From contig OY723322.1 in the NCBI GenBank assembly GCA_963210315.1, positions 434,001 through 498,000 on the forward strand: a DNA stretch of 64,000 bases, given 5' to 3'. The position numbers were made by a program, and so were the translations under genes. Origin of the DNA: Rhynchopus euleeides (lineage: Eukaryota; Euglenozoa; Diplonemea; Diplonemida; Diplonemidae). Positions 8,568-60,547 of this stretch are shown piece after piece (position 1 is the first letter of the stretch; each line of letters opens with the position of its first letter). Under the pieces are notes generated by a model that saw only the letters and a program-made list of their open reading frames with translations, was not told the origin of the DNA and did not search any database.

Positions 8568-8569
8568 AT

Positions 8570-8836
8570 CACGGTGCGCTAGTGTTGGCAACCACTAGTG
8601 GAGTCGACAACTGAAACCTCGACAACTGACTGGGTTGTTGACGACAAGTGCCAGTTGTCGACTCGACAACTGGCACTTGTCGAGTCGACAACTGGCACTT
8701 GTCGACTCGACAACTCTATACACTGTACTGCAGGAAGAACGCCCAAGTATGAAGGGGAAAACGCACAGTTGGGTGTGTGCTTGGGATATGAGGTGTGGTG
8801 GCATATCAGCGCTGGACTTTGTTGCGAATTTCCTTG
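8570..8836 (+). repeat. Left terminal inverted repeat of the 3.4-kb transposon
   Basis: It starts with CACGGTG, has a palindromic GTCGAC-rich block at about 8599-8712, and then a unique segment (about 8713-8836) that is the reverse complement of 11714-11835. The two arms differ in the number and order of the short palindromes. Confidence 0.9.
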
Positions 8837-8955
8837 TGCCGTTTCTCCCTCCCACAACCCACATCACCAGGGTCTTGCAAGCCCTGACCAGATTACCTCC
8901 ATTGTTGAATAGATACACACACGCCAACAGACACACACACACACAGCTATCAATC

Positions 8956-9684
8956 ATGCCTGCCTCTGCCAAAACCACGGCGAAGAGAAGCAGAACGGAG
9001 GAAACCGCCCCGAGCTCGGCCCCCCCGACGAAGCAGCCCGCCACTCAGCCGGGCTTTATTCAACTTTTTGTTGAATACTACGTCGAGCCGGAGGAGGGGG
9101 GGCGGCTGTCGAACACAGCCCTGAAGGCACTGATCGGGAAGATCACGGGCAAGCCCATAAAGGGCAACGACGGGACCGTGAGCGCGGCGATGGGGGCCAG
9201 GTACAAGGAGTACCAGGGGGGGACGGTGTCGGAGAAGTCGGCGAAGGAGGCGCAGCTGGAGAGGTACTCCATCCGCACCAAGGGGGGGACGGATACGGAG
9301 TTCATTGGTGTGAGGATCACACCATCTCCATCAGCCTCCGCCAAGTCCAAGGCGAAACTGGAGCAGATGCAGAAGCTGCACCCGCACGCCGCCCTCACCT
9401 CGGGCGTAAAGATGTCCCGGCTCTACGCCGCAGAGGTGAAGCTGGCTGCCCCCCAGAAGACGAAGGCATCCTCGAAGGCAGACAAGATCTTTCCTCAATA
9501 CTCAGGAAGGAAGAGAGACGTGTCGTCGTTGCAGGGAGCAGCCAACACCTTTGCTCCAAGAACCGTCGGGGGATTCTACGAGTTCATCGTGGAATCTGGG
9601 CTGTCGACGGTACAGAAGGTGACCCAGAATGGGCACATTCTGCGCCTCACCCTGCGGAGGCTGACATTTGATGATCCAGTGTGA
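8956..9684 (+). CDS. Transposon ORF1, unknown basic accessory protein (242 aa)
   Basis: The frame opens at 8635 inside the terminal repeat, but the Met at 8956 (MPASAKTTAKRSRTEE) follows the repeat and a plausible 5' leader, so I choose it. The N-terminus is Ser/Thr/Lys-rich with a nuclear-localisation-like KRSR. The middle (about residues 35-130) looks globular, with FIQLFVEYYVE, TALKALIGKITG and AQLERYSIRTKGG. The C-terminal third is Lys-rich, ending near GFYEFIVESG and LRLTLRRLTFDDPV. I recognise no family. By position, between the left repeat and the transposase-like gene, it may be a DNA-binding helper comparable in role to TNPA of Spm. It could also be a first exon of a longer transposase, but the GTGAGT at 9681 does not join the next ORF in frame with either obvious acceptor. 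Confidence 0.72.
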   Translation: MPASAKTTAKRSRTEETAPSSAPPTKQPATQPGFIQLFVEYYVEPEEGGRLSNTALKALIGKITGKPIKGNDGTVSAAMGARYKEYQGGTVSEKSAKEAQLERYSIRTKGGTDTEFIGVRITPSPSASAKSKAKLEQMQKLHPHAALTSGVKMSRLYAAEVKLAAPQKTKASSKADKIFPQYSGRKRDVSSLQGAANTFAPRTVGGFYEFIVESGLSTVQKVTQNGHILRLTLRRLTFDDPV

Positions 9685-9824
9685 GTGTGGAAGCGTCAAC
9701 GTATATGAAAGCAAACGGAAGAAAAGGTGCAGAACGATCGCAGTGACACTTTCCCTTTTTTGGTTATCACTCTTGACGTCATCCTCCCCCCGCCGGTTCC
9801 TCAGGCATAGCCTTTTTTGTTGGG

Positions 9825-11705
9825 ATGCACACACACACCACAGGAGAGCCGGGTGGGAATGGTTCCGAAGAGACAATGCAAGATGAAATGTCCTTGATGG
9901 CTGAGGGTATTCGCAGGTCACGATTTGTGGCAGGGACGTCCATCCGGAAGTGCGGTGAAATCTCGAAATGCATTCGAGAGACGTTTCGGGAGCACGGGAA
10001 GGCGCCTGAGAGGCACGGGCTCTCCCCGGCGACGGTGAGGAAGCATGAAGAGCACCTCCAGAGAGTGGTCGAGGCAAGGAGGGGTAGTTTGCTCAAAACT
10101 CTCGAGCACATTGTCGAAACACACCTGCATCGCATCGACATGGAACACCCTCGTGTTGTCCTGACTGCTGATGGCTATAACCCGGGCAGCAGGGACCTCA
10201 CAGCCAGGATCCGCTTAGCTGCAGGTATTGCTCACGGCAGTTTTACCACACCTCTCTGCACGGTGACAGATCAGAGAAAGGATGAATACATCTCATTCGC
10301 GACGTTCAGCCTGGCCGATCAGATAAGGGAGGTGCAAAATGCGTTCTTCAGAAAAGGAGACACCGTTTTTTTAGCAAAGCAGTTTCTGCTGGGGGGTGAT
10401 CACGCGGAGCTCACGGGTTTGTTTGAGGGCATAAGTTCTGGATCGAAGTCACACAGATCGGCGTTCTGTGCCACAGAGATGAAGGACTGGCTTGATATGC
10501 TACATTCGTGCAAGAGGCTGTCCCTCCAGGAATTGCACAAGCAGGGCTTCACATGTCACCTTTCCAAGGCCTTTGAGAGCGAAGCGTACTGTATCACTCC
10601 TGCTCTTCACGACGTCAAAGGCGTCATATCTCTCATAGTACGCCTCATCCCGGAGGGGAAAGCGATCAAGACAGCTGTGGTTGGGAGTGCGAAGTCGAAC
10701 ATGACTGGGAGTCAGGCCCGACAAGTTCTGCAAAAGCTGATACAGAGCACAACGGGGCTTAAAAAAATGATCTGTCTTTTGATGGACGTGCTTGTGTCGT
10801 TCAGATACAACAATATACCCGTGAAGTTTTGGGTACACGGCCAGAATGGGGCAGAGTTTGCAGTGAGTATGTTATCGATGCACTTGTTAATATTTCTTTG
10901 TGAGTGGGCGTCACCGGGCGTGACGACAGGTCCGGGCGCAACGTATGTGCACAGCCTGACGCACTGGTTTGATTCCATAGATGCGCACTGTCTCTCCCTC
11001 AGTGATGAAGCTTTGGAAGCTGGCAACGGTCGAAGCAAGATCTACTCAGCCTGTGCCTCGGAAAGGACTATGGAGCGCGACCTCATTCTTTTCGAGATCC
11101 AACAACTTCAAAGTTGGGGCGAGAATGGGCTTTGGGGGGGTTCAGGACATACTCCGAAGTTAATGACCGCCGTTGGGGCATTCAATGTGTGTTCATGTGT
11201 TGTTGCGGGCAGCTGGGAAAAGGCAACAGGATCTCTCTACCGAAGACTTGAGTCTGCTGGGCTGGCGGACCACGTCAAAGAGAGAGGTCAGAGCGGGTGT
11301 GTCTTTTGGATTGATCCGAAAAAACCACCGAAAACCATACTGAACGTGTGTGTGTGTGGCAAGGAACCTTGGGGTGTGCCTCCCACCCCTACTCAAGAAG
11401 AAACCCAGTCTCTCCCGGAGGAGGTTCATGAATTTCGATGCATTATTTGTGACTACTCCTCAGCAAAGAAAACGTCTCTGTTTGCACACTACGATGCAAA
11501 GCACAGACCAGGGAGCAATGTCCCTTGCTCGTCATGCACAATCGAATGCAAAATATGTCACACAACAATAAGATTGAAGGGACAAAGCCAGCACTACCTG
11601 GCCCACCACCCCCGCTCTCTCACAACAAAACGTTGCTTACTTTGCTTTGAGACCTTCCGTAGTGTCCGTGAACGCGATCTCCACATGAAGACTGACCATC
11701 CTTGA
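9825..11705 (+). CDS. Transposon ORF2, DDE-like transposase candidate with three C2H2 zinc fingers
   Basis: A 626-residue frame without interruptions. An alternative Met at 9876 gives 609 residues. The N-terminal 100 residues look helix-rich and DNA-binding-like (SPATVRKHEEHLQRVVEA). Three acidic positions in the right kind of strand or helix context could form a DDE triad: Asp116 (VVLTADGYN), Asp192 (LLGGDHAEL) and Glu398 (DEALEAGNGRSK), with spacings of 76 and 206. The C-terminus has three C2H2 fingers: C539/C542/H555/H560, C575/C578/H590/H594 and C604/C607/H620/H625. The stop codon lies 9 bp before the right inverted repeat. The domain order is a catalytic core then fingers. The transposase role is inferred from the surrounding element. 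I cannot place the superfamily by eye. Confidence 0.82.
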   Translation: MHTHTTGEPGGNGSEETMQDEMSLMAEGIRRSRFVAGTSIRKCGEISKCIRETFREHGKAPERHGLSPATVRKHEEHLQRVVEARRGSLLKTLEHIVETHLHRIDMEHPRVVLTADGYNPGSRDLTARIRLAAGIAHGSFTTPLCTVTDQRKDEYISFATFSLADQIREVQNAFFRKGDTVFLAKQFLLGGDHAELTGLFEGISSGSKSHRSAFCATEMKDWLDMLHSCKRLSLQELHKQGFTCHLSKAFESEAYCITPALHDVKGVISLIVRLIPEGKAIKTAVVGSAKSNMTGSQARQVLQKLIQSTTGLKKMICLLMDVLVSFRYNNIPVKFWVHGQNGAEFAVSMLSMHLLIFLCEWASPGVTTGPGATYVHSLTHWFDSIDAHCLSLSDEALEAGNGRSKIYSACASERTMERDLILFEIQQLQSWGENGLWGGSGHTPKLMTAVGAFNVCSCVVAGSWEKATGSLYRRLESAGLADHVKERGQSGCVFWIDPKKPPKTILNVCVCGKEPWGVPPTPTQEETQSLPEEVHEFRCIICDYSSAKKTSLFAHYDAKHRPGSNVPCSSCTIECKICHTTIRLKGQSQHYLAHHPRSLTTKRCLLCFETFRSVRERDLHMKTDHP

Positions 11706-11713
11706 GAAGGGGA

Positions 11714-11970
11714 CAAGGAAATTCGCAACAAAGTCCAGCGCTGATATGCCACCACACCTCATATCCCAAGCACACACCCAACTGTGCGTTTTTCCCTTCA
11801 TATTTGGGCGTTCTTCCTGCAGTACAGTGTATAGAGTTGTCGAGTCGACAACTGCCAGTTGTCGACTCGACAAGTGCCAGTTGTCGAGTCGACAACTGGC
11901 AGTTGTCGAGTTTGAGGTTGTCGACTCCACTAGTTGAGGTCACTCGTAACTACCAAACTAGTGCACCGTG
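11714..11970 (-). repeat. Right terminal inverted repeat of the 3.4-kb transposon
   Basis: The reverse complement of the left arm, ending CACCGTG at 11964-11970. The outer 20 bp match the left end with one substitution and one single-base gap (CACGGTGC, then A or G, then CTAGT). Confidence 0.9.
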
Positions 11971-12243
11971 ATCACACTGGCACGACAGATCCAGGCACAC
12001 AGAGCGAAGCCCCCCCTCACACACCCCAAACCTCCCCAAACAACTCGAAGAAGAAGAAAAAAAACCCCCCTGCCCCACACCTTCTTTTGATGAAGCGTGG
12101 GGAGACGCACTGTATCAAAATAGAGTGGGGGATAGAGAGGGGAGAGAAGTCACGGAAGGCTGGGCTGCCCCCCAGCCGTCATCTCTGTTGCAAGCAAAAT
12201 AAAGGTTGGGTTAACTCACGGCTCTCCCCCCCTTGCAAGGGAG

Positions 12244-21171: not shown

Positions 21172-24100
21172 TTAAGTGAACTCTGCAAAGTCACGCTCGG
21201 TGATGGTGGAGTACTGGCCGTCGACAGACTTTGTGATATGGTACACTGTTTCCGTCCCGCAGACACGCCCGATGCGCCGCACAAACTGCTCGTCGTGGGT
21301 GATGATGATCAGCTGGAAGTTCTGGTGCAGCTTGCGAGCCTCAATCAGCTCTGTCAGGGCGTAGGCGAGCGAGTCGATGTTTTCGATGTCGAGGTTTGTA
21401 GTCGGCTCGTCCAGAGCGAGAATGCCACAGTCACAGCAGAAGGCCTGCGACAGGGCAATGCGCACCACGAGAGAGGCCAACACCTTCTGCCCAGCACTGC
21501 ATCTCCCGCGCATGTCGAGCGCCACACCGTTCTTCACCATCACCACACGGTAGTTGTAGTTCCGCCGTGTGGTGCTCGCTTCCACGTCGCTTCGCAGCTC
21601 GACGTGGTCAATATCGTTGCCTCGGTAGGTGCGAACCCACAGGTCACGGATCACCTCGTTCACCTCGGTGATCTTCTCATCGTGGTACTTCATCAGAGCC
21701 TTGTCCAGGGCCTGAGAGTATTTCCCCAGGTCGTCGTCTGCAAGCTGTGCCGTGGTCAGACGGATCAGCGTGCTGTTGTAGCGCTCGTCGATCCTGTCGT
21801 ACTTGATGCTCTGCAGCTCCGTCTGCCGCTCGTTCAGCAGGTTCTCTGTGGCGTGCATCTGCCCTGCGAACATGGCACGCTCCTTCTCATGCTCAGACTT
21901 CTGTGCGCGCAGCTTGTCCAGAGATGCCCACACACCCTCGTGCCCGCGTGTGCGCTCGCTGATGACCTTGCGAAGCTGGGCCAGCTGCGACTCGCCGCTG
22001 CGCACCTCCCTGCAGACTGTGCGGTACTGCAGGTTCGCCTCCAGCTCCCGCCGCGTCTGGTCCTGCTTGCTGAGCTTTGCAAGCAGCTCAGAGGCCTTTG
22101 CCTCGAGCATCTCTTTCTCGTGCCCGCGGTGCTGCTGCCGCTCCTCGAACTCGCGGAGCCTCTGCTCCAACTGCACCACCCTCTCAGGCGTGTTCTCCTC
22201 CAGGTGCCGCTTCACGTCCCCCACGATGGCGGCAATCCGCGACAAGCCCTCCTGCCGCTCCTCCACATGCGACGTGATCTCCGCCTCCTTCCTGTCCCCC
22301 TCCTCCCTCCGCCGCAGCAGCTCCTGCTCGTGCGCCGCAAGCTGCTGCTCGGCAGGCGCCAGCGTGGCCTTGATATCGGCACATGTGTTGTTCCCCCGCG
22401 TATACTCCTCATGCAGCGACTCATACTGCACCTTGACACGCGCTCGCTCTTCAACTGCTGCCTTCTTGCCATCCAGCAGGCGCTGCTGCTGCTGCACCTG
22501 CTGCCCGAGAAGCGTCGACTCGCTGCGCTGCCTCTCGAGGGTGGCCATGAGGTTCTGCTGCTCGCGCACCAGCCCAGTCATGCGTGACTGCACCTCGTCT
22601 ATCTCGCGCTCCACCAGGTCCAGCGGGCGCACGCCCTCGCCATACTGTGCGGCGATCTTCGTCTCCTCACCGCGGATGCTCTCCTCCACACCCCTGGCGC
22701 TGGCCTGCAGCTCCTTGACCCTGTCTGCTGTGTGTAGCAGGCCTTCGAAATCCTTCGCCTCCTTCGCCAGTGCATCCAGCTTAGCCGTGAGGCCGCGCAG
22801 CGACTCGGTGCGGATCTCGAAGGTATCGCGTGCCTTGGCCTGCTGCTCGTCAAGCTTCTGCACCTCGTCGCGGAGGCGCTGCACGTCGCTGTGGACAGGC
22901 AGCAGGCGGCGCACCTCGTGCACCAGTCGCTGTGTCTTCTCCAGCGTGTCGCGCTTGGCGGCGATGGTGGCGGGTACCTCGCGCAGCTTCTGCTGCATCG
23001 TGTGGGCCATCACGCTCAGCTCCGACTCCGTCATGTCGCGCGCACAGATGGGGCAGCACCGTTCCTCCTCGGCAGTCTCCTTGAAGCGTTCGTGGCACAG
23101 CTGCAGCGCCTCCATGGAGGCCACGGTTTTGCGCTCCTTCTCCTCCTTCGTCACCGCCTTCGTCAGCAGCTCCGGCAGGGCCTTGTTGTGCTTCTGCTGC
23201 AGCGGCGCGTAGCTGTCCTCCTTCAGCTTCACCTCCGCCTCCAAATGCATGTGGCGCTGCGAGAGCTGCGCCACCTGCTGCTTCGCAATGGCCAGCTCCC
23301 TGTCACACTCGGTGGCCTGCTTCTGCACCTTCGCGACAGCAGCCTGCTTCTGATCGACTGCAGCGCGCACATCCTCCTTAAACTGTGGGGGGAAACATGG
23401 GACGGGCCGTGCTGTCGGATGCATACATTCGCGTGTGGCTTGCGCCCAGCAAGCCTCTGAAACCCATCCTCGAGCTGCTGCTTGACAGACGCTGCGGTGT
23501 GTGTGTGGTGTGCGCCTCAATGCACGCAACGTGCAGCGTGCATACCTTCATCCCTCCCGAATGACTCGCGCTGCTCCCTCAGGAGGCGCAGCTTGTGCGC
23601 CGCCTGCTGCTCGTCACGCCTGCTCTGCGCATCCGCCCGCAACGCATCGGACTGCACCTGCAGGGCTGTGTGCTCCTCCCGCAGCACAGACAACCGCGAC
23701 CCCACCGCCTCCTCCTCGCCCCGCTTCTCCCCGAGCTGCTGCTCCAGGCGTGCCAGGTGCTGGTCCGCGTCGCCCTGTTCCTTGTCCGCAGCAGACAGGG
23801 CGTTGTAGCGGTCCTTCAGGTCACGCAGCTTTGGGCGCGACTGTTCATTCTTACTCTCGAGAGCCTTCAGCTCTGCAAGCATCTGATCGCGCCTCTGCCG
23901 CACGCCGCTCATCTGGCGCTCGACATCCTCCTGAGCCCAGCGTGCCTCGGAACGCTCCTTCTCACGCTGCCGCTTGAGCTCCTCCAGCTTCTGCACCAGC
24001 GTGTCATACAGCTGCAGCACGGCCGACTCGTCGAAATGATGCTCCACGTCAACACTGAGCTGCAGATTGCTGGCGGAGGCGATGCCGCGCAGCATCCCCT

Positions 24101-25214
24101 GCAGACGGGCCATGCGCCCCTCGTGCTCGCTGCGCTGTTTGAGGAGAAACTCGCGCTCGCTGCGGATGCGCATCAGCAGCCCATCCGCCTCGCGGATCTC
24201 CGTGGAGAGGCTGCGGGCCCGCTGCTCCGCCTCGTTGCGCTGGTGCTTCAGGCTGTCGAACACGCCGTCGAACTTCTGCAGCGCCTCCTCCAGCTTCTCG
24301 TCGGTCTCCTCCGACACCGCGGCGAGCGACCGCCCCAGGGTCTCCCGCTGGTGCACCAGCGCCTCGACCTGCCCCTGCAGCTTGATGGTATCACTCTCCA
24401 GCTGCTGGATCTCCTCCGCCTGCTGCCCCGTCTCGTTGATCTGCGCCTGCACCTGCCCGATCACCCCGTCGATGCTCCGGATCTGCTCCGTAACAGAGGT
24501 GATCTTCTTCTGCGTGTCCTCCACCTGCGCCCTCAGGAGATGTGCCTGCTCACGCTTCTGTTTGAACACCGCGAGGTTGGCGATGTGCTCCTTGATCTTA
24601 TCGCGATTGTCCTTCCCTATGCGCCGCAGCTCCTCCAACGCTTTTGTATACCGAGTGGAGGAGAAGATCTCGTCGAACCGCTTCTTCAGGGTGCGTGCAT
24701 CAGAGAGGGGCCAGTTGGTGTCATCCTGATGCAGGAAGATCACATTGTCAAGGATAGGCTTCGATATGCCCAGCAGGTCCGGCACAAGCTTGTCGATGTC
24801 GCTGCATTTGTATGACTGTGACACGATCTGCCCCGTTTTGGGGTCGCGTGTCTGCAGGGATACGTCAAGCGTTTCAAACTTCTGCTTCTCACTCGACGAC
24901 TGTGTCAGCTGGTAGCTCCGCCCGATCAACATCTGCTGACCCGCATTGGTGCGGAACTGCAGTCTGATCTGCGCCTTCACCTCCGTCTCCCCTGCAACCT
25001 TTGGGTCATGGATGAAGGCGGCACCCTTCCCGGTGTTCACCGGCAGCTCGCCTGTGCACGCATTGCGCAGACTCTCAATGACAGTCGTCTTCCCACACCC
25101 GTTGGGCCCGAGGATAATCGTGACAGGCTTGTGGAAGCGCAGCGACTGCCGTGCCGATGTGTCAGGGTTGAATGACCGGATCCCCGCGATCTGCAGCTGC
25201 TCGATACATGCCAT
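21172..25214 (-). CDS. RAD50: RAD50 double-strand-break repair ATPase, two main exons
   Basis: Exon 1 runs 25214 to about 23546 and exon 2 from about 23382 to 21172, together about 1290 residues (human 1312). Exon 1 begins MACIEQLQIAGIRSFNP, carries Walker A GPNGCGKTT (residues 36-44) and the Q-loop region NVIFLHQDDTNWPLSD, then heptad-rich coiled coil. Exon 2 carries the zinc hook CCPICARDM in the middle of the coil, the ABC signature RCSAGQKVLASL, Walker B CGILALDEPTTNLD and the H-loop IITHDEQFV. It is the ATPase of the MRE11-RAD50-NBS1 complex, which tethers and processes DNA ends in the nucleus. The junction is uncertain: the donor G|GTATGC at 23546/23545 is phase 1, while the strongest acceptor (TTTCCCCCCACAG before 23382) is phase 0. 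Acceptors further upstream that fit phase 1 exist. Confidence 0.95.
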
Positions 25215-26595
25215 CTCTGCAGCAGCAGCAGGGGCTGTGTAGGCCGATGGGGGCGCCCAGGCCTACCCCCAGTTCGGCGGCACGACTAGGGTCTCTCGTG
25301 CCGAGGTGGGCCCAATGTGAGGCCTGTGGTGTGTATAGTGTGGTGTGGTGGTGTGTCAGTGTGCATGCACTGCGCATCACTCCGTCCGATTAAGTGGTGT
25401 AAATGGGGGAGGCGCAGATAAAGTTTGGAAAGGGGACTGCAGCCGGATGAAGTAGCGGAGTGGGGAGGTGTGGGGGCGTCAAGCTTCTCCGATTCGGGCC
25501 GTTACAGCCGCCCGAGCGGCACATGCTCAACCCTCAGCTGCCTCCTTCCCCGCCCCCCCCCCCCCCCGTCCAAAAAATATAACGGCGCACATCGCAACCT
25601 CCCAACACAAATCGCACCACCCAGCCCGCCACTCCCCTCTTCCCAGCCGCGAAAGGGGCTCGGAAGCCTTGCTGGCCAGTGGTGCGGTTTTTGCCCCCTC
25701 CTCCATTGCTCTCGTGAGCTCTCCCGTAACGCTGTCACAACAACCAGTGGGGTCAGCCATATGCTGCTTTCGGCACCCAGCTGCTCGCTGGCATCGGCAA
25801 ACAATGCATTCCTACAGTGTTGTACATCCGAATTGCAGCGGCTGGTGGGTACGCCGGTGAAACAATATACCGTTGCCTAAGCCGGTTAAAATCCCCTCAC
25901 CCACACTCACGACAGCTGTCAGAAGGGCATGTTGCAAATAGTATACTCTGCGTCAAGTCATGCCGAGGCCCCCAGCGCGAAGGAGGTATTTCCGCCAAGA
26001 CCTACCACCCTTCCAACTCCTTGCCGCCGTGACCCTTCAGACTGTCAACATAAAGAACACAACCGCCGAGTCTGAAACATTGCATTGTGGCAGTGCCGCT
26101 GCAAACCCACCCAAAGGGAGGGCTGCTTTACCTCAACAGGAGTGAGGACGAGAGAGGAGAAAGAGGAAGAGAGAGAGAGAGAGAGTCGAACACGTTACGT
26201 GTGACGGTACATTACGTTGTTATCATTTTGTGCAGGTGCCATGCGGCAGCTGCACGTGTGTGGGGAGGAGGGAGGGGGGGTGGGGGGGGGGGCAAAAAAA
26301 AGATGCCTTTTTCGTCGGCTTTACGAATAGGGCACCTCCAAAAAGGTGTGAAAGATATATCCGGGGGGGGGGGGGGGGGGTGGGGTGGGGTGGGGGGGTT
26401 TATTCCTGGAGCACATTTTTGCACCCCATCCGAAAGGGCAACACTTTGTATCTCTCTTTTGTCTTGGAGCAAAAATAACATCTTCGGTCTGGGGGTTTAA
26501 GTGTTCATTGTTCCTCTGCGTGGCGGTGGCCTTGGGCCACACCAAAATAGGATCATGTTCGGGTAGCCAAACCCAGAGCAAATGCCGCTCGTAGC
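25215..26595. other. Gene-free stretch with C16 and G18 homopolymers
   Basis: It includes a C run at about 25551-25567, a GA microsatellite at 26167-26186 and an 18-base G run at 26363-26380 followed by further G blocks to about 26398. No supported gene. Confidence 0.5.
26363..26398 (+). repeat. G18 homopolymer and G-quadruplex-type tract
   Basis: Eighteen consecutive G, then T-separated blocks of four, four and seven G. This is the longest homopolymer in the window. Confidence 0.9.
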
Positions 26596-27096
26596 TGGTG
26601 TCAGGACGACCCGCCCCCAATACTAAACTGCATCCCAACCAGACCACCCTCTCTTGCGTCTTGGCCGCGTCTCTCAAGACAGCACATAAAAATCAATTAG
26701 CGGCCGATATCTTGCCACTTCAGGTTTTCTACAATTTCCTTCGACCTGAAGCGTTCAGCAGGAACAAAACCGAATCCCCGCTGCACATGTTGCCAATGTT
26801 AATCACGGTGGAGGCCCCCCCGCCCCCCCACCTGGGATAGCATCCTGTGGATGCAGCAGCCCTCCGATGACAGGACACCCGACCTTGCGCACATCCCGCA
26901 CACGATGCGTGGCGGGGGTGATGTGCGTTGGCTTGCCGGGCCTGCCATCCTCTGTTCCCCAGAAGTGGGAGGAACAGAAAAGTATCTGCGAAAGGCTGCC
27001 ACAAGAGATGAAACAATCCAAGTATTAGCGTGTGTGTCGGAGACCCGCGCCCTGCGCAAAAAAATAAAATCGGCACAGCGTTTCCGACCACCGAGA
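26596..27096. repeat. 501-bp array block T, copy A (3' flank of RRM gene A)
   Basis: From TGGTGTCAGG to CCACCGAGA. It is exactly 501 bp, as in the other three copies, with only about eight differences from copy B. It ends six bases before the stop codon of gene A. Confidence 0.93.
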
Positions 27097-27102
27097 TCAA
27101 GC

Positions 27103-28223
27103 CTAGTACCCACCCTTACCGGCACCGCCATCACGGTCCTCGCGGATGAAGAGGGGACGCCCGTGGAGCTGGACCTCGTTCAGCTCTGCGATGGCCCTCT
27201 GCGCGTCGTGCGGGTTGGAGAACTCCACCATCGCAGACCCCTTCGAGCTGTGGTGAAGGGCGGTGTGCGTGCAGTCGAGGACAAGACTTGGAGTTGCGTA
27301 AATTGTTCGTATGAAGGCCCAGGCATGTGTACAGGCTCAGGTCATTTGTGACAATATCACCACACAAATAAAGGCATGTGACTCAAGTGTGTGAGGCGGT
27401 GGTTTGAAAGCATACCGGCCGTCGTGCCCCTCGAACAGGTCGGCGCGCGTCACATCCCCGATCTGGCGGAAGTAGTCCTTCAGGTCCTGCCAGCTCGTGC
27501 GCCACGCCAGGTTCGTGACGAAGATACGGCAAGAGCTGTCGCCCCCGCCGCTGTGGAAGTTCTGCTGGCCCTGCATCAAGGATGATGTGTTGACGCCTCT
27601 GACTGAGGAGGGAAGGGGAACTGAATCAGGGCACAGGAAGGGAGACGAACTGCAGAAGGCACCGAGAGCACCCTGCAGGTCGATCTCCACTATACAGAAC
27701 ACACGTGTCGCAGCCGGGGCCAAGCCCACTGTTCCTTGTCTCATAAACATACCCGACCACCACCGCCAGCGCGGCCGCCACCACCCCTGCCACCCTTCCC
27801 CTTGCCGACGAAGCCACCCTTGCCACCCTTGCCGCCGTAGCTACGGCCACCACTGCCACCACGCGAGCCGCCCCCGCTGAAGCTGCCGAAGTTGCCGGTC
27901 GAGCCAGGCAGACCAGTGATGTCACGGTCGTCCTTGTCCTGGCGGACGAAGATCTTCCTGCCCTGGAACTCCCAGTCGTGCATCAGCACCATAGCATCAG
28001 CAGCCTCGCGTGCCGTGGCGAACTCCACGATGCCACACCCTGCGCTGCGGCCCTGGCGGTCCTCCTTCACGTTTGCGTAGACAACAGTCCCCTCGCCATC
28101 GTTGAACAGGTCCTTCAGCTCCTGCCACCGTGCCCTGTAGGGCAAGTTTCCGACGTAGAGACGGCGACCAACGGTCACCTGCTCACCCTGGTGCTCCACA
28201 GTCACTGTCTTCTCCTCCGCCAT
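27103..28223 (-). CDS. Two-RRM RNA-binding protein, array copy A (256 aa)
   Basis: Exons are 27753-28223, 27416-27570 and 27103-27247. Donors are GTATGT and GTATGC, phases 0 and 2, and the spliced frame closes exactly. RRM1 spans residues 20-98 with RNP2 LYVGNL (22-27) and RNP1-like AGCGIVEF (61-68). A Gly/Lys/Arg-rich linker (GGKGGKGG, about 117-157) follows, then RRM2 with RNP2 IFVTNL (173-178) and RNP1 KGSAMVEF (211-218), split by intron 2. The layout resembles hnRNP M/GBP2-type nuclear RNA-binding proteins. The target is unknown. It is the most diverged array member. Its intron-2 side acceptor differs: the acceptor matching the other copies would put an early stop in frame, so exon 2 probably starts at GQQNF (27570) after a downstream CAG. 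Confidence 0.9.
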
Positions 28224-28493
28224 TGTTCCACCCTCGTCCCGACACCCCCTCTGGGATGGTGGTGCTGCTGAACACAATGAAAGACATAAGACAGCACTAA
28301 GACGGGAGTCTGATGATGCCCCGAACAGGGCACTGGTGCACTGGTGCCCGTTGACACGGAGGGATGCCACATGGGGGTCGGGGTGATCCAACGGAGATGG
28401 GCAGGGCGCAGGGCACAGGGGGCCGACACAGGTGGTTGCGTTGCTCAGTACATAGAACCCGATGTGGACCACTCGTCATCCGACAGTGAGGTT

Positions 28494-29030
28494 CGCACGA
28501 AGCGAGGGTTAAAGAAGCAGGAGAGGTCGGGTTTGAGACGACGACCTGTGGGTGGTGAACCCACCGCGCTGAGCACTGCACCATCCCCTATGGTGGAGTC
28601 GCCAGGAGTCGCAGCTCAAACCCGTGTGTGGGAACGTTTCTGTTCACACATAACTAAAGGAACGGCAAAACGGAAAGTCAAAAAGTATCACCTCCCGCTG
28701 AATTCGGACCAACAAGCTGCAGAATGCAGCCAGGCGCACTGCCCACTGCGCCAAGGAGGATCTGAAAGGAAGGGCAAGGGGACAACAGACGCAGCTTCGC
28801 ACTGGAAACACTTCCAGTGTTCTGTTCCGTCAGTTTGTCCGAAAGAAAGCGACGACCTCTCGCGTGTGGTGCGAGTGTGTCGCCAATATGAGCGGTGATG
28901 CAGTACAAACATCAATCTGGGTTCTTTTCCTCTGCGAAGCCGTGGTCTTCCACCACACCAAGGGGATCTTTTCTGGGCAGTCGAGCGTAGTGCTCGAAAC
29001 TGCAGCAAAAAAGCAATCACGCGCACAGTG
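28494..29030. repeat. Array block S, copy 1
   Basis: About 537 bp shared almost identically with 33775-34310 and 36200-36793. It lies directly left of a 501-bp T block in all three cases. It contains the tRNA-like segment 28519-28590 on the minus strand. Confidence 0.9.
28519..28590 (-). repeat. tRNA-Val(CAC)-like segment, probable SINE head, copy 1
   Basis: Read on the minus strand it folds as a cloverleaf: acceptor TAGGGGA against CTCTCCT (weak), T8, D-arm GTGC/GCGC with an 8-nt loop starting A14, anticodon arm GTGGG/CCCAC (perfect) with loop TTCACCA, a 5-nt variable region, and a T-arm GTCGT/CCGAC with loop CTCAAAC. The anticodon would be CAC. The A box (TGGTGCAGTG) is good and the B box has drifted. 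The weak acceptor and decayed B box argue for a tRNA-derived repeat rather than a working tRNA gene. Confidence 0.55.
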
Positions 29031-29531
29031 TGGTGTCAGGACGACCCGCCCCCAATACTAAACTGCATCCCAACCAGACCACCCTCTCTTGCGTCTTGGC
29101 CGCGTCTCTCAAGACAGCACATAAAAATCAATTAGCGGCCGATATCTTGCCACTTCAGGTTTTCTACAATTTCCTTCGACCTGAAGCGTTCAGCAGGAAC
29201 AAAACCGAATCCCCGCTGCACATGTTGCCAATGTTAATCACGGTGGAGGCCCCCCCGCCCCCCCACCTGGGATAGCATCCTGTGGATGCAGCAGCCCTCC
29301 GATGACAGGACACCCGACCTTGCGCACACCCCACACACGATGCGTGGCGGGGGTGATGTGCGTTGGCTTGCCGGGCCTGCCATCCTCTGTTTCCCAGAAG
29401 CGGGAGGAACAGAAAAGTATCTGCGAAAGGCTGCCACAAGAGATGAAACAATCCAAGTATTAGCGTGTGTGTCGGAGACCCGCGCTTTGCGCAAAAGTAT
29501 AAAATCGGCACAGCGTTTCCGACCACCGAGA
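29031..29531. repeat. 501-bp array block T, copy B
   Basis: The same boundaries and length as the other T blocks. It runs up to six bases before the stop codon of RRM gene B. Confidence 0.93.
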
Positions 29532-29537
29532 CCCAGT

Positions 29538-30726
29538 TTAGTAACCACGCCTCGCACTGGCGTCACGGTCCTCGCGGATGAAGAGGGGACGGTCATGCAG
29601 GTGAACCTCGTTCAGCTCTGCGATGGCCCTCTGCGCGTCGTGCGGGTTGGAGAACTCCACCACCGCAGACCCCTTCGAGCTGTGGTGGGAGGGCGGTGTG
29701 ATGCAGCGTGCACTCCCGAGAGCCAGAGGCGGAGATGCAGCGAGCCAGAGGCGGGGTGGAATGGATGAGAGAAGTGGAGACATTGTGTGTCCTCTCCTCC
29801 TTGTATTTCATTTCATGCGTTGACATGCGCACACTTTCAAGCCCCATTGTCTGATGTATGGAGCACTGTTGGCTGAATGACACTCGTAAGTCGTGCGTAG
29901 TAATCCCCTCAGACAGAAACCCCCTGGAGACCCACCCAACCCCACTTTGCACAACTCCTCTGCTTGAAGCATACCGGCCGTCGTGTCCCTGGAACACCTC
30001 AGCACGTGTCACCTCACCGATCTGGCGGAAGTGGTCCTTCAGGTCCTGCCAGCTCGTGCGCCACGCCAGGTTCATGACGAAGATGCGGCAAGTAGGGTCA
30101 CCACCACCGCCGCCGCCACCGCCACCCCCCTGGTGGTAGCTCTGCTGGCCCATGTATGGCGAGTCGTACTGAGGAGGGAGGGTGTGGGTATGTGAGCATC
30201 TGCACTATCGAGGAGGGCGAACACATGACTCTCAGCAGCAACGCGCGGAGAGGACCCTGAGCCCTCCGCAGACACACACAAAGAAACAAGACGGACGATG
30301 CAAGCTAAGCTCTTTGAGCATGCATACCTGACCACCCTTGCCGCCACCCTTACCGCCCTTGCCGCCGTACTGGCCACCACGGTTGAAGCCACTGAAGTTG
30401 CCGGTCGAACCAGGCATTCCGGCAATGTCGCGGTCGTCCTTGTCCTGGCGGACGAAGATTCTCCGCCCCTGGATCTCCCAGTCGTTCATCGTCATCATCG
30501 CATTGGCAGCCTCGCGTGCCGTGGCGAACTCCACGATGCCACACCCTGCGCTGCGGCCCTGGCGGTCCTCCTTCACGTTTGCGTAGACAACGTTCGCCCC
30601 ACCCTGGATGAACAGGTCCTTCAGCTCCTGCCACCGCGTCGTGTAGGGCAGGTTTCCGACGTAGAGACGGCGACCAACAGTCACGGGCTCGCCCTGGTAG
30701 TCCACAGTCACTGTCCTCTCCTCCAT
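29538..30726 (-). CDS. Two-RRM RNA-binding protein, array copy B (244 aa)
   Basis: Exons are 30328-30726, 29975-30168 and 29538-29679, with phases 0 and 2 and donors GTATGC. RRM1 (MEERTVTVDYQGEPVTVGRRL, then YVGNLPY) is followed by a shorter Gly-rich linker (GGQYGGKGGKGGGKGGQ), a second linker YDSPYMGQQSYHQ with a Gly run, and RRM2 ending DRDASARRGY. Exons 1 and 2 and intron 1 are nearly identical to copy D. Exon 3 (LNEVHLHDRP) is closer to copy A. Intron 2 is 295 bp, about twice that of C and D, because its middle holds unrelated sequence. The 87 bp upstream of the ATG match copy D. Confidence 0.92.
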
Positions 30727-30813
30727 TTTTGCTGTGTGCTACTTTTTGTCTTGACAACCTGTGTGGAAGGGTGATTATCGCCTGTGCAACACACACGCAA
30801 GCCAGGCCACGAC

Positions 30814-31944
30814 ACTGTGCGCACTAGACGGGGGCTGGGGTGTGCAGCATGCCGGGTATTCTGTTGGACACACACGGAGTGTTCCCCAGGTGTTCCCCAA
30901 GTCTCCCGGGAAAGGTGACGGGGGTGTGGGCTGGGGCCTGTCGCGTGGTTCGGACTCGCGGGCGTCTTGTTGTGCGCTCCGACTCTTCACCGGAGTGTGC
31001 AGGGGGTGCGCTGTGCATCCCCAGAACACACCGCGGCGATAACGATGGCACGGCTTGTACGACTTTCTTCCTACCCAGCGGCCACCTTCCACACCCCTCC
31101 ACGAGGGGGTGCACAGTGATGCCGGGTAAATTGGAGCAGGTGGATATGAACAACCACAGCAACAGCAGGCGCAAGTGCAAAAAGAACCTGTTGGGTGGTT
31201 GCAACACCGCATCAGAACACAAATGGGAACAGCAAAGAGGAGGGATTGCAGCATGGCAGGGAGGGACGAGGGGGTCCGGCAATCGGCACGTCAGAAGCCA
31301 AAAACAAAACAGGCGCGCGAAAAGCGCAGCGTCACTGTTCTGTTGCGGCACCAGATCACGTCGCCAACGGGGCCGTAGGTTAGCAGAGGGGAAGATGGTG
31401 GGGAATGATCAGCGGTGGGGCGAGATCAATAAGAAAGGCACGGGAATACGAACGACAACCCAACCCACCCGTCCAGTCAGCCGGGTGAGGGGTGCAGGCT
31501 GTCACTGGCATGCACCCTCCCCCGCCGCCATCAGGCAGGAATGAAAAAAAGACAAACGTCCAACGGGTGCTGTGAACAGCCCAGTGCGAGGGCACAGTGC
31601 CACGCGAACACAACGGAGGGGTCGGCAAGCAGCCCGTAGCTGATGACAAAATAGACACGACGCCTGTGTCCGTATCGCACTGGGAGTGAAGAGGCGCGAG
31701 ACGGACACCGCGCGTGTGGAAGAGGGTGGGCGGTTGGGGAAGGCGAAAACCTGGAAGCAGGAAAAGGGAATGGATCAGTCTTTCGGATGCAGTGGCCTTG
31801 AAGGGAGGGAAGGATCTGTTGTGTGGTTTGGGGAGCCCTGATGTGGTGGTTTGAGAATGCATGCCGCGCCGAGTGCGAGCACGGCGGTAACAGCAAGGCA
31901 TGAGGCAAATGAAACCCCATGCAAGTCACGGAAACCATGCACCA
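30814..31944. other. Gene-free stretch inside the array
   Basis: Unique sequence between the 5' flank of RRM copy B and the end of the secreted Cys-rich gene. No supported ORF and no shared repeat. Confidence 0.45.
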
Positions 31945-33414
31945 CTAAGCACTGCAGTGGCACGTGTCTGAGGAGTAGTCGTACTTGCAACCAGCCTTCA
32001 TGCCGCTGACGACGCACAGTGACGACAAGCATGAGCGCGGGCTGCCGTGGAACGAGCTGCAGTCATCGGAGATCACAGGCCAGGGTGTGGCGGGCGCCTT
32101 CGTCTCCACCTTCTCAGGGCAGAAGCAGTCACCAGAGTACTCGTTGTACTTGCAGGGCACCTTCTTCCCAATCTGCACGAAGGCAGGGCACAGCGTGTTG
32201 ACACATGCCTTGTGCTGGAAGTTCAGGTCCTCGCAGCGCTGCGGGGCTGCGGTTGCCGGCGCCTTCGTCTCCACCTTCTCAGGGCAGAAGCACTCACCGG
32301 AGAGCTCGTTGTACTTGCAGGGCACCTTCTTCCCAATCTGCACGAAGGCAGGGCACAGCGTGTTGACGCACGCCTTGTGCTGGAAGTTCAGGTCTTCACA
32401 GCGCTCAACGGGCGGGGCGGGAGTTGGTGGGAGTGGTGTCGCCGGGGCAGGGGTCGCAGGTGCATCCGTCTGGATGGCGCACACACGGATGTTGTCCACA
32501 CGCACCTGCGCCTGCACATTGTTCGGGGGTGCGCCGGTCAGCAGCGGGTAGATCCACAGCTGTGCGTAGGCGGCTGTCGCGGTGTAGTCGAATGTGATCT
32601 CATCCCAGGCGGGGTAGACCATCCCGTTGGAGAACATCACATCGCTTGGCCCGAAGGCCGGAAGCGATGTCGCAGTCTGCAGCACCAGCCCGTTCACTGC
32701 CCGGACAAAGAACTGCCCAGCCACAGAGTTGCCTGTGGTCACCCACATCGTGACGCGGTACAGCTGCCCACTGACAAATGGGACGTTCGTCACAATCCCC
32801 TCACCGATACCGCTGTGCGACCACATCCACGCAGACCGCAGTCCCTGACCAGGGGCACCGCCAAACACGGAAGGGGTCCCGTGCGACACGGACCACGACT
32901 GCATCTGCCCGTTCACCAGAGCCTGCCCGATGTTTGTGGTTGTGGTGATGAGCTCGAAGCTGGGGTTCATCACGAGTGTCGTCTCGTTGCACGGCGGGAG
33001 TTCAGGTGCCTGTGTGGTGGGAACAGGCGTTGCGGGCGCACCTGTTGCCGGTGCAGAGGTCGGAGGTGCGGATGTGGATGGGGCAGGGGTCGTAGGTGCG
33101 GCCGTCTCTGCAGCCTTGGGGCACCAGCACTTCTGCGTGTCGTGGTCATACTGGCACGGCACGTGCTGCTGCGGCAGGAGGGAAGGGCACGCGCTGTTGA
33201 CGCACAGCTCCAGGTTCAGCCCTGAGTACTCGGCGCATGAGGTCGGACACCCGCAGGACCCTGCCGCCACATTCCACACGCAGTACTGCATGTCATTCTC
33301 ACACAGTTGCCCTTCACAGTCTGACAACGACCCATGGGTGCTGCACGGCTGTGACTGTGCCCATGCCGCGCTGGAAGCCAGCAGCATGACACTTACAACC
33401 CGGCTGACCCGCAT
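31945..33414 (-). CDS. Secreted Cys-rich protein with CBM/jelly-roll-like domain and Thr/Pro/Ala linkers
   Basis: A single exon of 489 residues. The start is the Met at 33414 (MRVSRVVSVMLLASSAAWA), which gives a clean signal peptide. A second Met at 33423 is three codons upstream, and the longer open frame to 33759 runs into repeat block S. Five six-Cys modules are visible: two near the N-terminus, then two almost identical ones (CEDLNFQHKACVNTLCP and a following CxCPEK) and a last one ending DTCHCSA. Linkers are runs of TxAPxTxAP, probably O-glycosylated. Between modules 2 and 3 lies a domain with LVMNPSFE, a YRVTMWV strand and VRVDNIRVCAI, resembling CBM4/9-like galactose-binding folds. No membrane segment or GPI-type tail is seen. 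A wall or matrix glycoprotein is the likely role. Confidence 0.85.
   Translation of the reverse strand: MRVSRVVSVMLLASSAAWAQSQPCSTHGSLSDCEGQLCENDMQYCVWNVAAGSCGCPTSCAEYSGLNLELCVNSACPSLLPQQHVPCQYDHDTQKCWCPKAAETAAPTTPAPSTSAPPTSAPATGAPATPVPTTQAPELPPCNETTLVMNPSFELITTTTNIGQALVNGQMQSWSVSHGTPSVFGGAPGQGLRSAWMWSHSGIGEGIVTNVPFVSGQLYRVTMWVTTGNSVAGQFFVRAVNGLVLQTATSLPAFGPSDVMFSNGMVYPAWDEITFDYTATAAYAQLWIYPLLTGAPPNNVQAQVRVDNIRVCAIQTDAPATPAPATPLPPTPAPPVERCEDLNFQHKACVNTLCPAFVQIGKKVPCKYNELSGECFCPEKVETKAPATAAPQRCEDLNFQHKACVNTLCPAFVQIGKKVPCKYNEYSGDCFCPEKVETKAPATPWPVISDDCSSFHGSPRSCLSSLCVVSGMKAGCKYDYSSDTCHCSA
32074..32403. repeat. 165-bp tandem duplication of a six-Cys module
   Basis: Copies 32239-32403 and 32074-32238 (55 codons each) differ at only a few positions (NELSGE versus NEYSGD). 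This is a recent in-frame duplication inside the secreted protein gene. Confidence 0.92.
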
Positions 33415-33628
33415 CGTCACCATCTGACTGGTAGGGCAATTCACCCTTCTCGGTTGCTCCTGTTGCGGAAGTTGCTCCTGCGAGGGGTGGTGGCGGTGCA
33501 CGAGACACACGTTGTGACTAAATGGGAGCCTGCGCCTGACGTGTGATGCAGAAGCGGCTCGTTCGTTGTGCAGTCCTTCTTCACGAGTGTGTGCGGAGAT
33601 GCAATACAACTGCAGAGTGACAACATGC

Positions 33629-34310
33629 AAAGCAAGGTGCGGAGCCGACACGCCTCGCTTCCAACTCTCATGCACTGTTTCGGTATCAGGCACTCCCCAT
33701 TCAGCCACAGTCCCAGAAAAAAATCCAAACATGCAGGGCGGTGCACTTGCAAGGCCCAATAGAAAGGTTCTAGGCGCACGAAGCGAGGGTTAAAGAAGCA
33801 GGAGAGGTCGGGTTTGAGACGACGACCTGTGGGTGGTGAATCACCGCGCTGAGCACTGCACCATCCCCTATGGTGGAGTCGCCAGGAGTCGCAGCTCAAA
33901 CCCGTGTGTGGGAACGTTTCTGTTCACACATAACTAAAGGAACGGCAAAACGGAAAGTCAAAAAGTATCACCTCCCGCTGGATTCGGACCAACAAGCTGC
34001 AGAATGCAGCCAGGCGCACTGCCCACTGCGCCAAGGAGGATCTGAAAGGAAGGGCAAGGGGACAACAGACGCAGCTTCGCACTGGAAACACTTCCAGTGT
34101 TCTGTTCCGTCAGTTTGTCCGAAAGAAAGCGACGACCTCTCGCGTATGGTGCGAGTGTGTCGCCAATATGAGCGGTGATGCAGTATAAACATCAATCTGG
34201 GTTCTTTTCCTCTGCGAAGCCGTGGTCTTCCACCACACCAAGGGGATCTTTTCTGGGCAGTCGAGCGTAGTGCTCGAAACTGCAGCAAAAAAGCAATCAC
34301 GCGCACAGTG
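33629..34310. repeat. Array block S, copy 2 (with 146-bp left extension)
   Basis: 33775-34310 matches block S copies 1 and 3. The extra left part 33629-33774 is shared only with copy 3 (36055-36199). The tRNA-like segment is at 33800-33870 and lacks one base in the anticodon stem, so this copy cannot fold properly. Confidence 0.9.
33800..33870 (-). repeat. tRNA-Val-like segment, copy 2 (degenerate)
   Basis: The same segment as 28519-28590 with a one-base deletion in the 5' half of the anticodon stem. It supports a repeat or pseudogene reading. Confidence 0.5.
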
Positions 34311-34811
34311 TGGTGTCAGGACGACCCGCCCCCAATACTAAACTGCATCCCAACCAGACCACCCTCTCTTGCGTCTTGGCCGCGTCTCTCAAGACAGCAC
34401 ATAAAAATCAATTAGCGGCCGATATCTTGCCACTTCAGGTTTTCTACAATTTCCTTCGACCTGAAGCGTTCAGCAGGAACAAAACCGAATCCCCGCTGCA
34501 CATGTTGCCAATGTTAATCACGGTGGAGGCCCCCCCGCCCCCCCACCTGGGATAGCATCCTGTGGATGCAGCAGCCCTCCGATGACAGGACACCCGACCT
34601 TGCGCACACCCCACACACGATGCGTGGCGGGGGTGATGTGCGTTGGCTTGCCGGGCCTGCCATCCTCTGTTCCCCAGAAGCGGGAGGAACAGAAAAGTAT
34701 CTGCGAAAGGCTGCCACAAGAGATGAAACAATCCAAGTATTAGCGTGTGTGTCGGAGACCCGCGCCTTGCGCAAAAGTATAAAATCGGCACAGCGTTTCC
34801 GACCACCGAGA
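34311..34811. repeat. 501-bp array block T, copy C
   Basis: The same boundaries and length as the other T blocks. It lies immediately 3' of RRM gene C. Confidence 0.93.
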
Positions 34812-34817
34812 CCCAGT

Positions 34818-35961
34818 TTAGTAACCACGCCTCGCACTGGCGTCACGGTCCTCGCGGATGAAGAGGGGACGGTCGTGGAGAGGCACGTCGTTCAACTCCG
34901 CAATGGCCCTCTGCGCGTCGTGCGGGTTGGAGAACTCCACCACCGCAGACCCCTTCGAGCTGTGGTGGGAGGGCGGTGTGATGCAGCGTGTGTGACAGAT
35001 GCGTGGATGTGGTGAAGTCTACAGACACAGGCAGGGAGACGGCATGATCCCAAATCCCCTGAAGAGCCACCCAACCCCACTTTTCCCAACTCCTCTGCTT
35101 GAAGCATACCGTCCGTCGTGTCCCTGGAACACCTCAGCACGTGTCACCTCACCGATCTGGCGGAAGTGGTCCTTCAGGTCCTGCCAGCTCGTGCGCCACG
35201 CCAGGTTCATAACGAAGATGCGGCAAGTGATGTCACCGCCACCGCCACCCCCCTGGAAGCTCTGCTGGCCGCCCGAGTATTGCGAGTCGTACTGAGGAGG
35301 GAGTGGCGGTGCATCGAATGAGTGTCAGGTTCAGCAGCAATCCGAACAAAAATTCCTTGTTTGGACGTCTAAAACCCTCTCCTGTCCCCTCTCTTGAGTT
35401 GTGTGTGATGACAAACAGAGGATGTGTCCAACTTGTGCACAAGTTCCGCATCTTTCCCGTCCATTCTTGTGAATTGAAGATTCTTGTGACGGAGTTCCGA
35501 GGTCCGGACCGAACTCCTTGACTGGAATGAGACACTGTTCCTTTCGCCATGCATACCTGACCACCCTTGCCGCCACCCCTGCCCCTGCCGCCGTACTGGC
35601 CACCACCATTGGGGCCACGGTTGCCACCGAAGTTGCCGGTCGAACCAGGCATTCCGGCAATGTCGCGGTCGTCCTTGTCCTGGCGGACGAAGATTCTCCG
35701 CCCCTGGATCTCCCAGTCGTTCATCGTCATCATCGCATTGGCAGCCTCGCGTGCCGTGGCGAACTCCACGATGCCACACCCTGCGCTGCGGCCCTGGCGG
35801 TCCTCCTTCACGTTTGCGTAGACAACGTTCGCCCCACCCTGGATGAACAGGTCCTTCAGCTCCTGCCACCGCGTCGTGTACGGCAGGTTTCCGACGTAGA
35901 GACGGCGACCAACAGTCACGGGCTCGCCCTGGTAGTCCACAGTCACTGTCCTCTCCTCCAT
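34818..35961 (-). CDS. Two-RRM RNA-binding protein, array copy C (242 aa)
   Basis: Exons are 35557-35961, 35110-35291 and 34818-34959, with introns of 265 and 150 bp, donors GTATGC, phases 0 and 2. RRM1 is identical to copies B and D. The Gly-rich linker differs (NFGGNRGPNGGGQYGGRG), as does the inter-RRM linker (YDSQYSGGQQSFQ followed by a Gly run). RRM2 has LNDVPLHDRP like copy D. Intron 1 is not shared with B or D, so it marks an independent lineage within the array. Product and role are as for the other copies. Confidence 0.92.
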
Positions 35962-36054
35962 TTTTGCTGTGTGCTACTTTTTGTCTTGACAACCTGTGTG
36001 GAAGGGTGATTATCGCCTGTGCAACACACACACGCTAAGTTTCGGCAGTATGAA

Positions 36055-36793
36055 AAGCAAGGTGCGGAACCGACACGCCTCGCTTCCAACTCTCATGCAC
36101 TGTTTCGGTATCAGGCACTCCCCATTCAGCCACAGTCCCAGAAAAAAATCCAAACATGCAGGGCGGTGCACTTGCAAGGCCCAATAGAAAGGTTCTAGGC
36201 GCACGAAGCGAGGGTTAAAGAAGCAGGAGAGGTCGGGTTTGAGACGACGACCTGTGGGTGGTGAATCCACCGCGCTGAGCACTGCACCATCCCCTATGGT
36301 GGAGTCGCCAGGAGTCGCAGCTCAAACCCGTGTGTGTGAACGTTTCTGTTCACACATAACTAAAGGAACGGCAAAACGGAAAGTCAAAAAGTATCACCTC
36401 CCGCTGGATTCGGACCAACAAGCTGCAGAATGCAGCCAGGCGCACTGCCCACTGCGCCAAGGAGGATCTGAAAGGAAGGGCAAGGGGACAACAGACGCAG
36501 CTTCGCACTGGAAACACTTCCAGTGTTCTGCTCCGCCAATTTGTCCGAAATGAACGACCTCTCGCGTATGGTGCGAGTGTGTCGTTAATATACCGGGTGG
36601 CTCTTCATGAAGCACGTTTACGTTCAAACTGAAAGGGCAATGCTTATAGCTCTCTGTCTGGCGCAGTACAAACATCAATCTGGGTTCTTTTCCTCTGCGA
36701 AGCCGTGGTCTTCCACCACACCAAGGGGATCTTTTCTGGGCAGTCGAGCGTAGTGCTCGAAACTGCAGCAAAAAAGCAATCACGCGCACAGTG
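36055..36793. repeat. Array block S, copy 3 (with left extension and internal insertion)
   Basis: It matches copies 1 and 2, but about 55-60 bp are added around 36580-36662 and a few bases lost near 36550. The tRNA-like segment is at 36225-36296. Confidence 0.9.
36225..36296 (-). repeat. tRNA-Val(CAC)-like segment, copy 3
   Basis: As copy 1, with one base change that breaks the last pair of the anticodon stem (GTGGA against CCCAC). Confidence 0.5.
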
Positions 36794-37294
36794 TGGTGTC
36801 AGGACGACCCGCCCCCAATACTAAACTGCATCCCAACCAGACCACCCTCTCTTGCGTCTTGGCCGCGTCTCTCAAGACAGCACATAAAAATCAATTAGCG
36901 GCCGATATCTTGCCACTTCAGGTTTTCTACAATTTCCTTCGACCTGAAGCGTTCAGCAGGAACAAAACCGAATCCCCGCTGCACATGTTGCCAATGTTAA
37001 TCACGGTGGAGGCCCCCCCGCCCCCCCACCTGGGATAGCATCCTGTGGATGCAGCAGCCCTCCGATGACAGGACACCCGACCTTGCGCACACCCCACACA
37101 CGATGCGTGGCGGGGGTGATGTGCGTTGGCTTGCCGGGCCTGCCATCCTCTGTTTCCCAGAAGCGGGAGGAACAGAAAAGTATCTGCGAAAGGCTGCCAC
37201 AAGAGATGAAACAATCCAAGTATTAGCGTGTGTGTCGGAGACCCGCGCTTTGCGCAAAAGTATAAAATCGGCACAGCGTTTCCGACCACCGAGA
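36794..37294. repeat. 501-bp array block T, copy D
   Basis: The same boundaries and length as the other T blocks. It lies immediately 3' of RRM gene D. Confidence 0.93.
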
Positions 37295-37300
37295 CCCAGT

Positions 37301-38344: not shown

Positions 38345-38434
38345 TTTTGCTGTGTGCTACTTTTTGTCTTGACAACCTGTGTGGAAGGGTGATTATCGCC
38401 TGTGCAACACACACGCAAGCCAGGCCACGACACT

Positions 38435-53280: not shown

Positions 53281-53329
53281 CACGGTGGGCTAATGAAAAA
53301 GTGATCACTATTTTGTGCACTATAAATTG

Positions 53330-53710
53330 CCACTATATAGTGACAACTTACTGAACACATAGTACTATATGGAAATGGGATAGTGACTAATGTTTCCGAC
53401 TCACTCGACACATACTGGACACAATCTAAATTATAGTGGACACATAGTGACAAATAGTGGACATGTCAACTATTATAGTCGACATGTAAGTAAAATAGTC
53501 GCATGTCCACTATAATAGTGACTATAATAGTGGACATGCGACTATTATAGTCACTATAATAGTCGACATGTCACTAAAATAGTGACTATTATAGTGGACA
53601 TGCGACTATAATAGTCACTATTATAGTCGACATGTCGACTATTCTAGTCGACATGCGACTATAATAGTCGCACGTGCCACTATGAGACCACTATAATAGT
53701 CGACATGTAT
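53330..53710. repeat. Left subterminal palindromic repeats
   Basis: Many copies of CTATAATAGTCGACATG-type words in both orientations. Similar words recur at 58098-58148, 58962-59100 and 60387-60530. Confidence 0.85.
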
Positions 53711-60530: not shown

Positions 60531-60547
60531 TTCATTAGCCCACCGTG

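Follow-up and report, generated by a model that had tools for sequence, protein, structure and literature searches.

The locus at 8570-11970 raises the question of what kind of mobile element it holds, and to which group of transposases the product of its longer gene, ORF2, belongs. It lies in a window of 64 kb (1-64000), by which we mean the whole stretch of DNA that was analysed. A two-gene DNA transposon had been proposed in a sequence-only reading. The ends, the arms, the GTCGAC palindromes, the AT flanks and the two uninterrupted ORFs on which that proposal was built were all recovered here. Outside its genes, the element has the following parts.

8570-11970, plus strand: whole element, 3,401 bp, with two genes and CACGGTG ends
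8568-8569: AT to the left of the element, one copy of the 2-bp target duplication
11971-11972: AT to the right of the element, the other copy of this duplication
8570-8843, plus strand: left inverted arm, terminal 15 bp CACGGTGCGCTAGTG
11707-11970, minus strand: right inverted arm, terminal 15 bp CACGGTGCACTAGTT
8603-8716: left subterminal repeats in 22-bp steps, GTCGAC-centred palindromes of the GTCGACAACTGGCACTTGTCGA type
11834-11931: right subterminal repeats, of the same type as on the left

The inverted arms are about 270 bp each, and the right arm starts just past the ORF2 stop (ORF2 ends at 11705). Complementarity was highest between 8642-8843 and 11707-11908 (202 nt, 97%), and reached 89% between 8594-8628 and 11900-11934. 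The outermost 70 bp or so are also inverted, but several indels separate the two sides. GTCGAC palindromes were located at 8603, 8657, 8684 and 8701 in the left arm and at 11844, 11861, 11888 and 11920 in the right arm.

The window was then searched with the terminus of this element. An inverted pair of termini at 53281 and 60547 was found, delimiting a second element.

53281-60547, no strand assigned: the second element, which lacks a transposase and has ends of the same type (CACGGTGGGCTAATG on both sides)
53279-53280: left copy of its 2-bp target duplication (CT)
60548-60549: right copy of its 2-bp target duplication (CT)

The second element is 7,267 bp long, has inverted ends of 31 bp at 84% and contains no long ORF between 53281 and 60547. 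Its subterminal repeats measure 32 bp and are centred on GTCGAC (ATAGTCGACATGTCGACTAT). In a blastn comparison, the two elements showed no likeness beyond the termini and the GTCGAC centres. A 15-bp terminus is common to both at 13/15. Sites with at most two mismatches to this terminus occur four times in the 64 kb, versus 0.17 expected, and these four are the four ends of the two elements, all in the right orientation. The CACGGTG ends named in the sequence-only reading held for the second element, which likewise ends in CACGGTG.

The flanking dinucleotides are AT...AT at the first element and CT...CT at the second, and in neither does the match extend further. AT had been read as a target duplication and does stand on both sides. 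Taken alone it is ambiguous, since this dinucleotide is a palindrome and the inverted repeat could include it. CT cannot be included in this way, and the CT...CT flanks of the second element therefore favour a 2-bp duplication. By chance, a 2-bp flank match is expected at about 1/16 in each of the two cases. Our best reading is a target duplication of 2 bp, taken from two insertions only, which is a small number of cases.

Further repeats were observed inside the second element. Two more elements are nested in it, at 58150-58959 and 60058-60386. They have inverted ends CCGTAAACGG / CCGTATACG with TA at both flanks and are Tc1/mariner-like MITEs. When the flanks of 58150-58959 are joined over one TA, a subterminal repeat unit of the second element is regenerated, which gives an internal empty site. 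A tandem array at 55958-57332 consists of a 369-391 bp unit in about 3.5 copies that are up to 99% alike, and carries the inverted motif GGAGCGAAG / CTTCGCTCC.

Pfam-recognised genes in the window all lie on the minus strand in long open frames, and the transposon genes lie on the plus strand. The minus-strand genes encode a cyclase, a papain-like protease, a RIO kinase, a phosphotransacetylase, a Na+/H+ exchanger, an ankyrin protein, Rad50, RRM proteins and a fatty acyl reductase. Neither a tRNA nor an Rfam family was found within the 64-kb window. As a guess, the one-strand arrangement resembles the gene arrays that euglenozoans such as Diplonema have. A Diplonema spliced-leader sequence had no match in the window, a result that says little. 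DNA transposons of the TATE, MULE and Helitron kinds are reported in the paper on the Diplonema genome (PMC10161547). At 21175-25262 on the minus strand, a Rad50/SbcC-like gene is split into two overlapping ORFs in different frames, with AAA_23 and Walker B parts. Their summed length is about right for one protein, and the split may be due to a frameshift, a short intron or an assembly error. An RRM protein gene is tandemly duplicated at about 26800-38600 on the minus strand, in about four copies with repeated flanks (examples at 27744-28475, 30235-30738, 35236-35973 and 37853-38356, minus strand).

We next turn to the two genes of the first element.

8956-9684, plus strand: ORF1, 242 aa, uninterrupted
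9825-11705, plus strand: ORF2, 626 aa, uninterrupted, a proposed DDE transposase with three C-terminal C2H2 fingers
11439-11699, plus strand: the three C2H2 fingers, C539-H560, C575-H594 and C604-H625

Both reading frames are longer than expected by chance. The stop-free stretches comprise 361 codons for ORF1 and 642 codons for ORF2; among 300 Markov copies of the element, no stretch exceeded 278. Read in its own frame, ORF1 agrees with host-gene codon usage. ORF2 also fits it best in its own frame, but poorly, with a GC3 of 0.57 compared to 0.66-0.92 in host genes. This difference bears on the idea that the locus is not mobile and merely represents an inverted duplication around two host genes. 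Only a single gene-bearing copy is present within the 64-kb window, as such a duplication would have it. However, ORF1 and ORF2 run on the strand opposite to the Pfam-recognised host genes, and a second element with a different interior has the same ends and 2-bp flanks of its own. We consider an immobile duplication extremely unlikely.

ORF1 had no match in Pfam, NCBIfam or PHROGs profiles or in viral contigs. We infer that it may encode an accessory DNA-binding protein. We also looked by eye for a splice between ORF1 and ORF2, but the evident GT donors where ORF1 ends and the AG acceptors ahead of ORF2 break the frame. ORF1 and ORF2 were therefore assumed to be two separate genes.

The transposase family of ORF2 was not recognised by any match in Pfam, NCBIfam, PHROGs or PDB sequences. 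In the profile libraries, only weak C2H2 fingers were seen, at its C-terminus. By eye, the fingers are regular (C539-C542-H555-H560, C575-C578-H590-H594 and C604-C607-H620-H625). AlphaFold, run without relatives on the full ORF2 and on its core, returned unusable models (pLDDT 34.1 and 35.3). No relatives of ORF2 were detected in viral and prokaryotic contigs or in phages and plasmids. Searches with two alignments, A1 of the E block and A2, found no relatives either. A1 also contains a Transib-like fragment. A2 is ORF2 aligned with invented motif variants, and served as bait for searching that was counted as no evidence. The subterminal repeat was not found in viral contigs. The best six-frame match of the window to the Transib fragment, at 41722-41925, is without the motif and was dismissed as chance.

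A catalytic core had been suggested at D116, D192 and E398, ahead of the three fingers. All of these were found where they had been placed, and the following motifs surround them.

10170-10172, plus strand: codon of D116, proposed first catalytic Asp (TADGYNP), based on position and the DG dipeptide only
10398-10400, plus strand: codon of D192, proposed second catalytic Asp (LGGDHAEL), resembling the surroundings of RAG1 D708
10950-10964, plus strand: H376-x3-H380, an H(3)H motif (H376-SLT-H380), 18 residues before E398
10998-11027, plus strand: the block LSDEALEAGN that contains E398; its counterparts in the alignment are LSEEASEARN (HzTransib) and WASEGNESGN (RAG1)

The resemblance of D192 to the RAG1 D708 surroundings is not significant by itself. 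For the E block, the HzTransib and mouse RAG1 reference sequences were checked against PDB chains, and only PDB-checked sequences were used in the tests. Aligned ungapped against the blocks of these two proteins, LSDEALEAGN scores 30. This score was reached by 41 of 20,000 ORF2 shuffles, and together with a correctly placed H(3-4)H upstream by 1 of 20,000, figures that are somewhat optimistic since the motif was noticed before being tested. E398 itself had been named independently in the sequence-only reading. Among the 1,002 six-frame ORFs of the window, ORF2 scored best (30; the next reached 24). E398 aligns to the Glu that we take to be E962 in RAG1. Thus the H(3)H motif and the E block fit the catalytic-Glu block of HzTransib and RAG1, in line with the earlier choice of E398. 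A local pairwise alignment of ORF2 with HzTransib was matched by 243 of 2,000 shuffles and is not significant, and plain local alignment to RAG1 fragments gave no significant similarity. A C(2)C motif is absent between D192 and E398, where only C215-A-T-E is seen; every CxxC motif of ORF2 lies at residue 539 or beyond. We conclude that a predicted DDE core in ORF2 is supported by motif, for E398 more strongly than for the two Asps.

The lost C(2)C and the indels between the outermost 70 bp of the two arms would also suit a transposon of this type that is dead or has been domesticated, and whose ORFs stay open after movement has ceased. In contrast, 242 and 626 codons without stops and 202 bp of arms that are still 97% alike speak against such decay, and we regard it as fairly unlikely. 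It concerns present activity and is compatible with the classification given below.

Based on these observations, we asked how the element fits the CACTA/Mirage/Chapaev/Transib (CMCT) clade of Kojima. The termini of this clade are CA...TG, its duplications measure 2-5 bp, an H(3-4)H stands between the second D and the E, and its members have in common a C(2)C motif between D2 and E (PMC12730594). The order D, D, H(3)H, E in ORF2 is the order of this clade. The ends, the duplication, the H(3)H motif and the DDE order lead us to the reading that 8570-11970 is probably an autonomous-looking cut-and-paste DNA transposon of CMCT type. Counted against it are the missing curated profile, the insignificant pairwise alignment and the absent C(2)C; moreover, within the 64 kb neither a further copy of this family nor an empty site of it was seen. 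The earlier pointer to CACTA/CMC elements gained weight, as CAC...GTG ends together with 2-bp duplications are known from CACTA elements (PMC6004678), and 2-5 bp duplications from CMCT (PMC12730594). The earlier statement that ORF2 cannot be placed in a named superfamily is strictly true, given that it is matched by no curated profile and lacks the C(2)C of the clade. For the same two reasons we do not file it as a proven CMCT member; by its features it behaves like the CACTA type. The element is likely to be a divergent transposon of CMC type, with zinc fingers and an accessory gene, and probably a new, odd branch of a known kind.

Two other placements were weighed against this. ORF2 could be an RNase H-type transposase from outside CMCT (KDZ, hAT or undescribed) that now uses CAC...GTG ends, with its E-block likeness due to convergence or chance. 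The lack of a profile match, the missing C(2)C, the insignificant pairwise alignment and the unusual C-terminal fingers would agree with this, but ORF2 has both H(3)H and the E block, and the duplication is 2 bp compared to 5-8 bp for hAT and 7-8 bp for KDZ (PMC12730594). We judge such an origin unlikely. Alternatively, the element could belong to the Transib/RAG1 family proper, with an RSS-like heptamer (CACGGTG versus CACAGTG). CACGGTG does have the heptamer-like CACNNTG form, and among the few sequences compared the E block is nearest to Transib and RAG1. However, Transib, RAG and RAGL make 5-bp duplications (PMC7204232), and the flanks of both elements here agree over 2 bp without any 5-bp match, which disfavours membership. 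Moreover, the C(2)C (ZnC2) is missing, and no RAG2-like gene accompanies ORF2; ORF1 has just 242 aa and matches nothing. Membership in the Transib/RAG1 family is therefore very unlikely.

For the preferred CMCT-type reading, the following mechanism can be proposed. ORF2 would act as an RNase H-like DDE transposase (D116, D192, E398), predicted from the protein sequence, and would recognise the CACGGTG...CACCGTG ends. It would excise the element and join it to the target with a 2-bp stagger, which would give rise to the 2-bp duplications. The transposase of Spm/En is TNPD, and the subterminal repeats are bound by TNPA; both are needed, and deleted relatives move in trans (PMC2613891). By analogy to TNPA, the C-terminal fingers of ORF2, the ORF1 protein or both may hold the GTCGAC subterminal repeats and in this way pair the ends of the element. 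Elements like the one at 53281-60547 retain the 15-bp terminus and lack the genes, and could be moved in trans by a related transposase.

A more far-reaching placement is possible, albeit doubtful. ORF2 might found its own superfamily-level lineage between CACTA and Transib/RAG1. Such a lineage would combine an RSS-like CACGGTG heptamer and 2-bp duplications with a catalytic-Glu block of the RAG/Transib type that lacks the C(2)C half of the zinc site, and its end recognition would have moved to a C-terminal C2H2 array and a separate DNA-binding protein. The Transib transposases, part of the CMCT group, gave rise to RAG1 and hence to V(D)J recombination. If the placement is true, a non-animal branch that has an RSS-like heptamer and a catalytic block of the RAG/Transib type, yet lacks C(2)C and differs in duplication length, would help to show which parts of the RAG/Transib system are old and which are dispensable. 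Should the element be no more than a further divergent CACTA element, it would add something useful but unremarkable.

Finally, we compared the elements with known systems. CACTA (EnSpm) elements with 2-bp duplications, namely ENS1_Cis of Ciona and the CMC-NA MITEs, are alike in CAC...GTG termini and duplication length (PMC6004678). The terminus here differs (CACGGTGSRCTARTG), and no relationship between the transposases was detected. The plant-type CACTA definition in the strict sense (CACTA terminus, 3-bp duplication, tnp2) does not describe the elements, which have CACGG, 2 bp and no tnp2. Two-gene layouts are nevertheless known for CACTA elements, and their subterminal repeats diverge between families while the termini stay alike (PMC2613891). 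The two elements of the window match this pattern, with termini alike and subterminal repeats unlike. Spm/En of maize and Tgmt* of soybean (TNPA/TNPD) share with them two gene products, repeated subterminal motifs and transposase-less relatives with common termini (PMC2613891). In contrast, Tgmt* makes a 3-bp duplication (PMC2613891), and both systems have a profile-recognised tnp2 and spliced overlapping transcripts, whereas the two ORFs of the first element are separate and intronless, and neither matches tnp2. Transib (HzTransib, PDB 6pqn) and RAG1 are alike in the catalytic-Glu block, the H(3-4)H spacing and the heptamer-like end; they differ in their 5-bp duplications, in having C(2)C, and in having neither a three-finger C-terminal C2H2 array nor an ORF1. 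The ESTA, Plavaka and Lanisha lineages are also divergent CMCT members, and ESTA likewise has 2-bp duplications (PMC12730594). However, ESTA duplicates TA, and the reported families carry a TET/JBP gene and all share C(2)C (PMC12730594). A parallel in layout is Sly1-1 of Neurospora, a two-gene CMC element with a transposase gene and a second gene of unknown function inside its inverted repeats; it differs in that C(2)C and H(3)H are both present and that the genes are divergently transcribed in a Chaetomium relative (PMC4592977).
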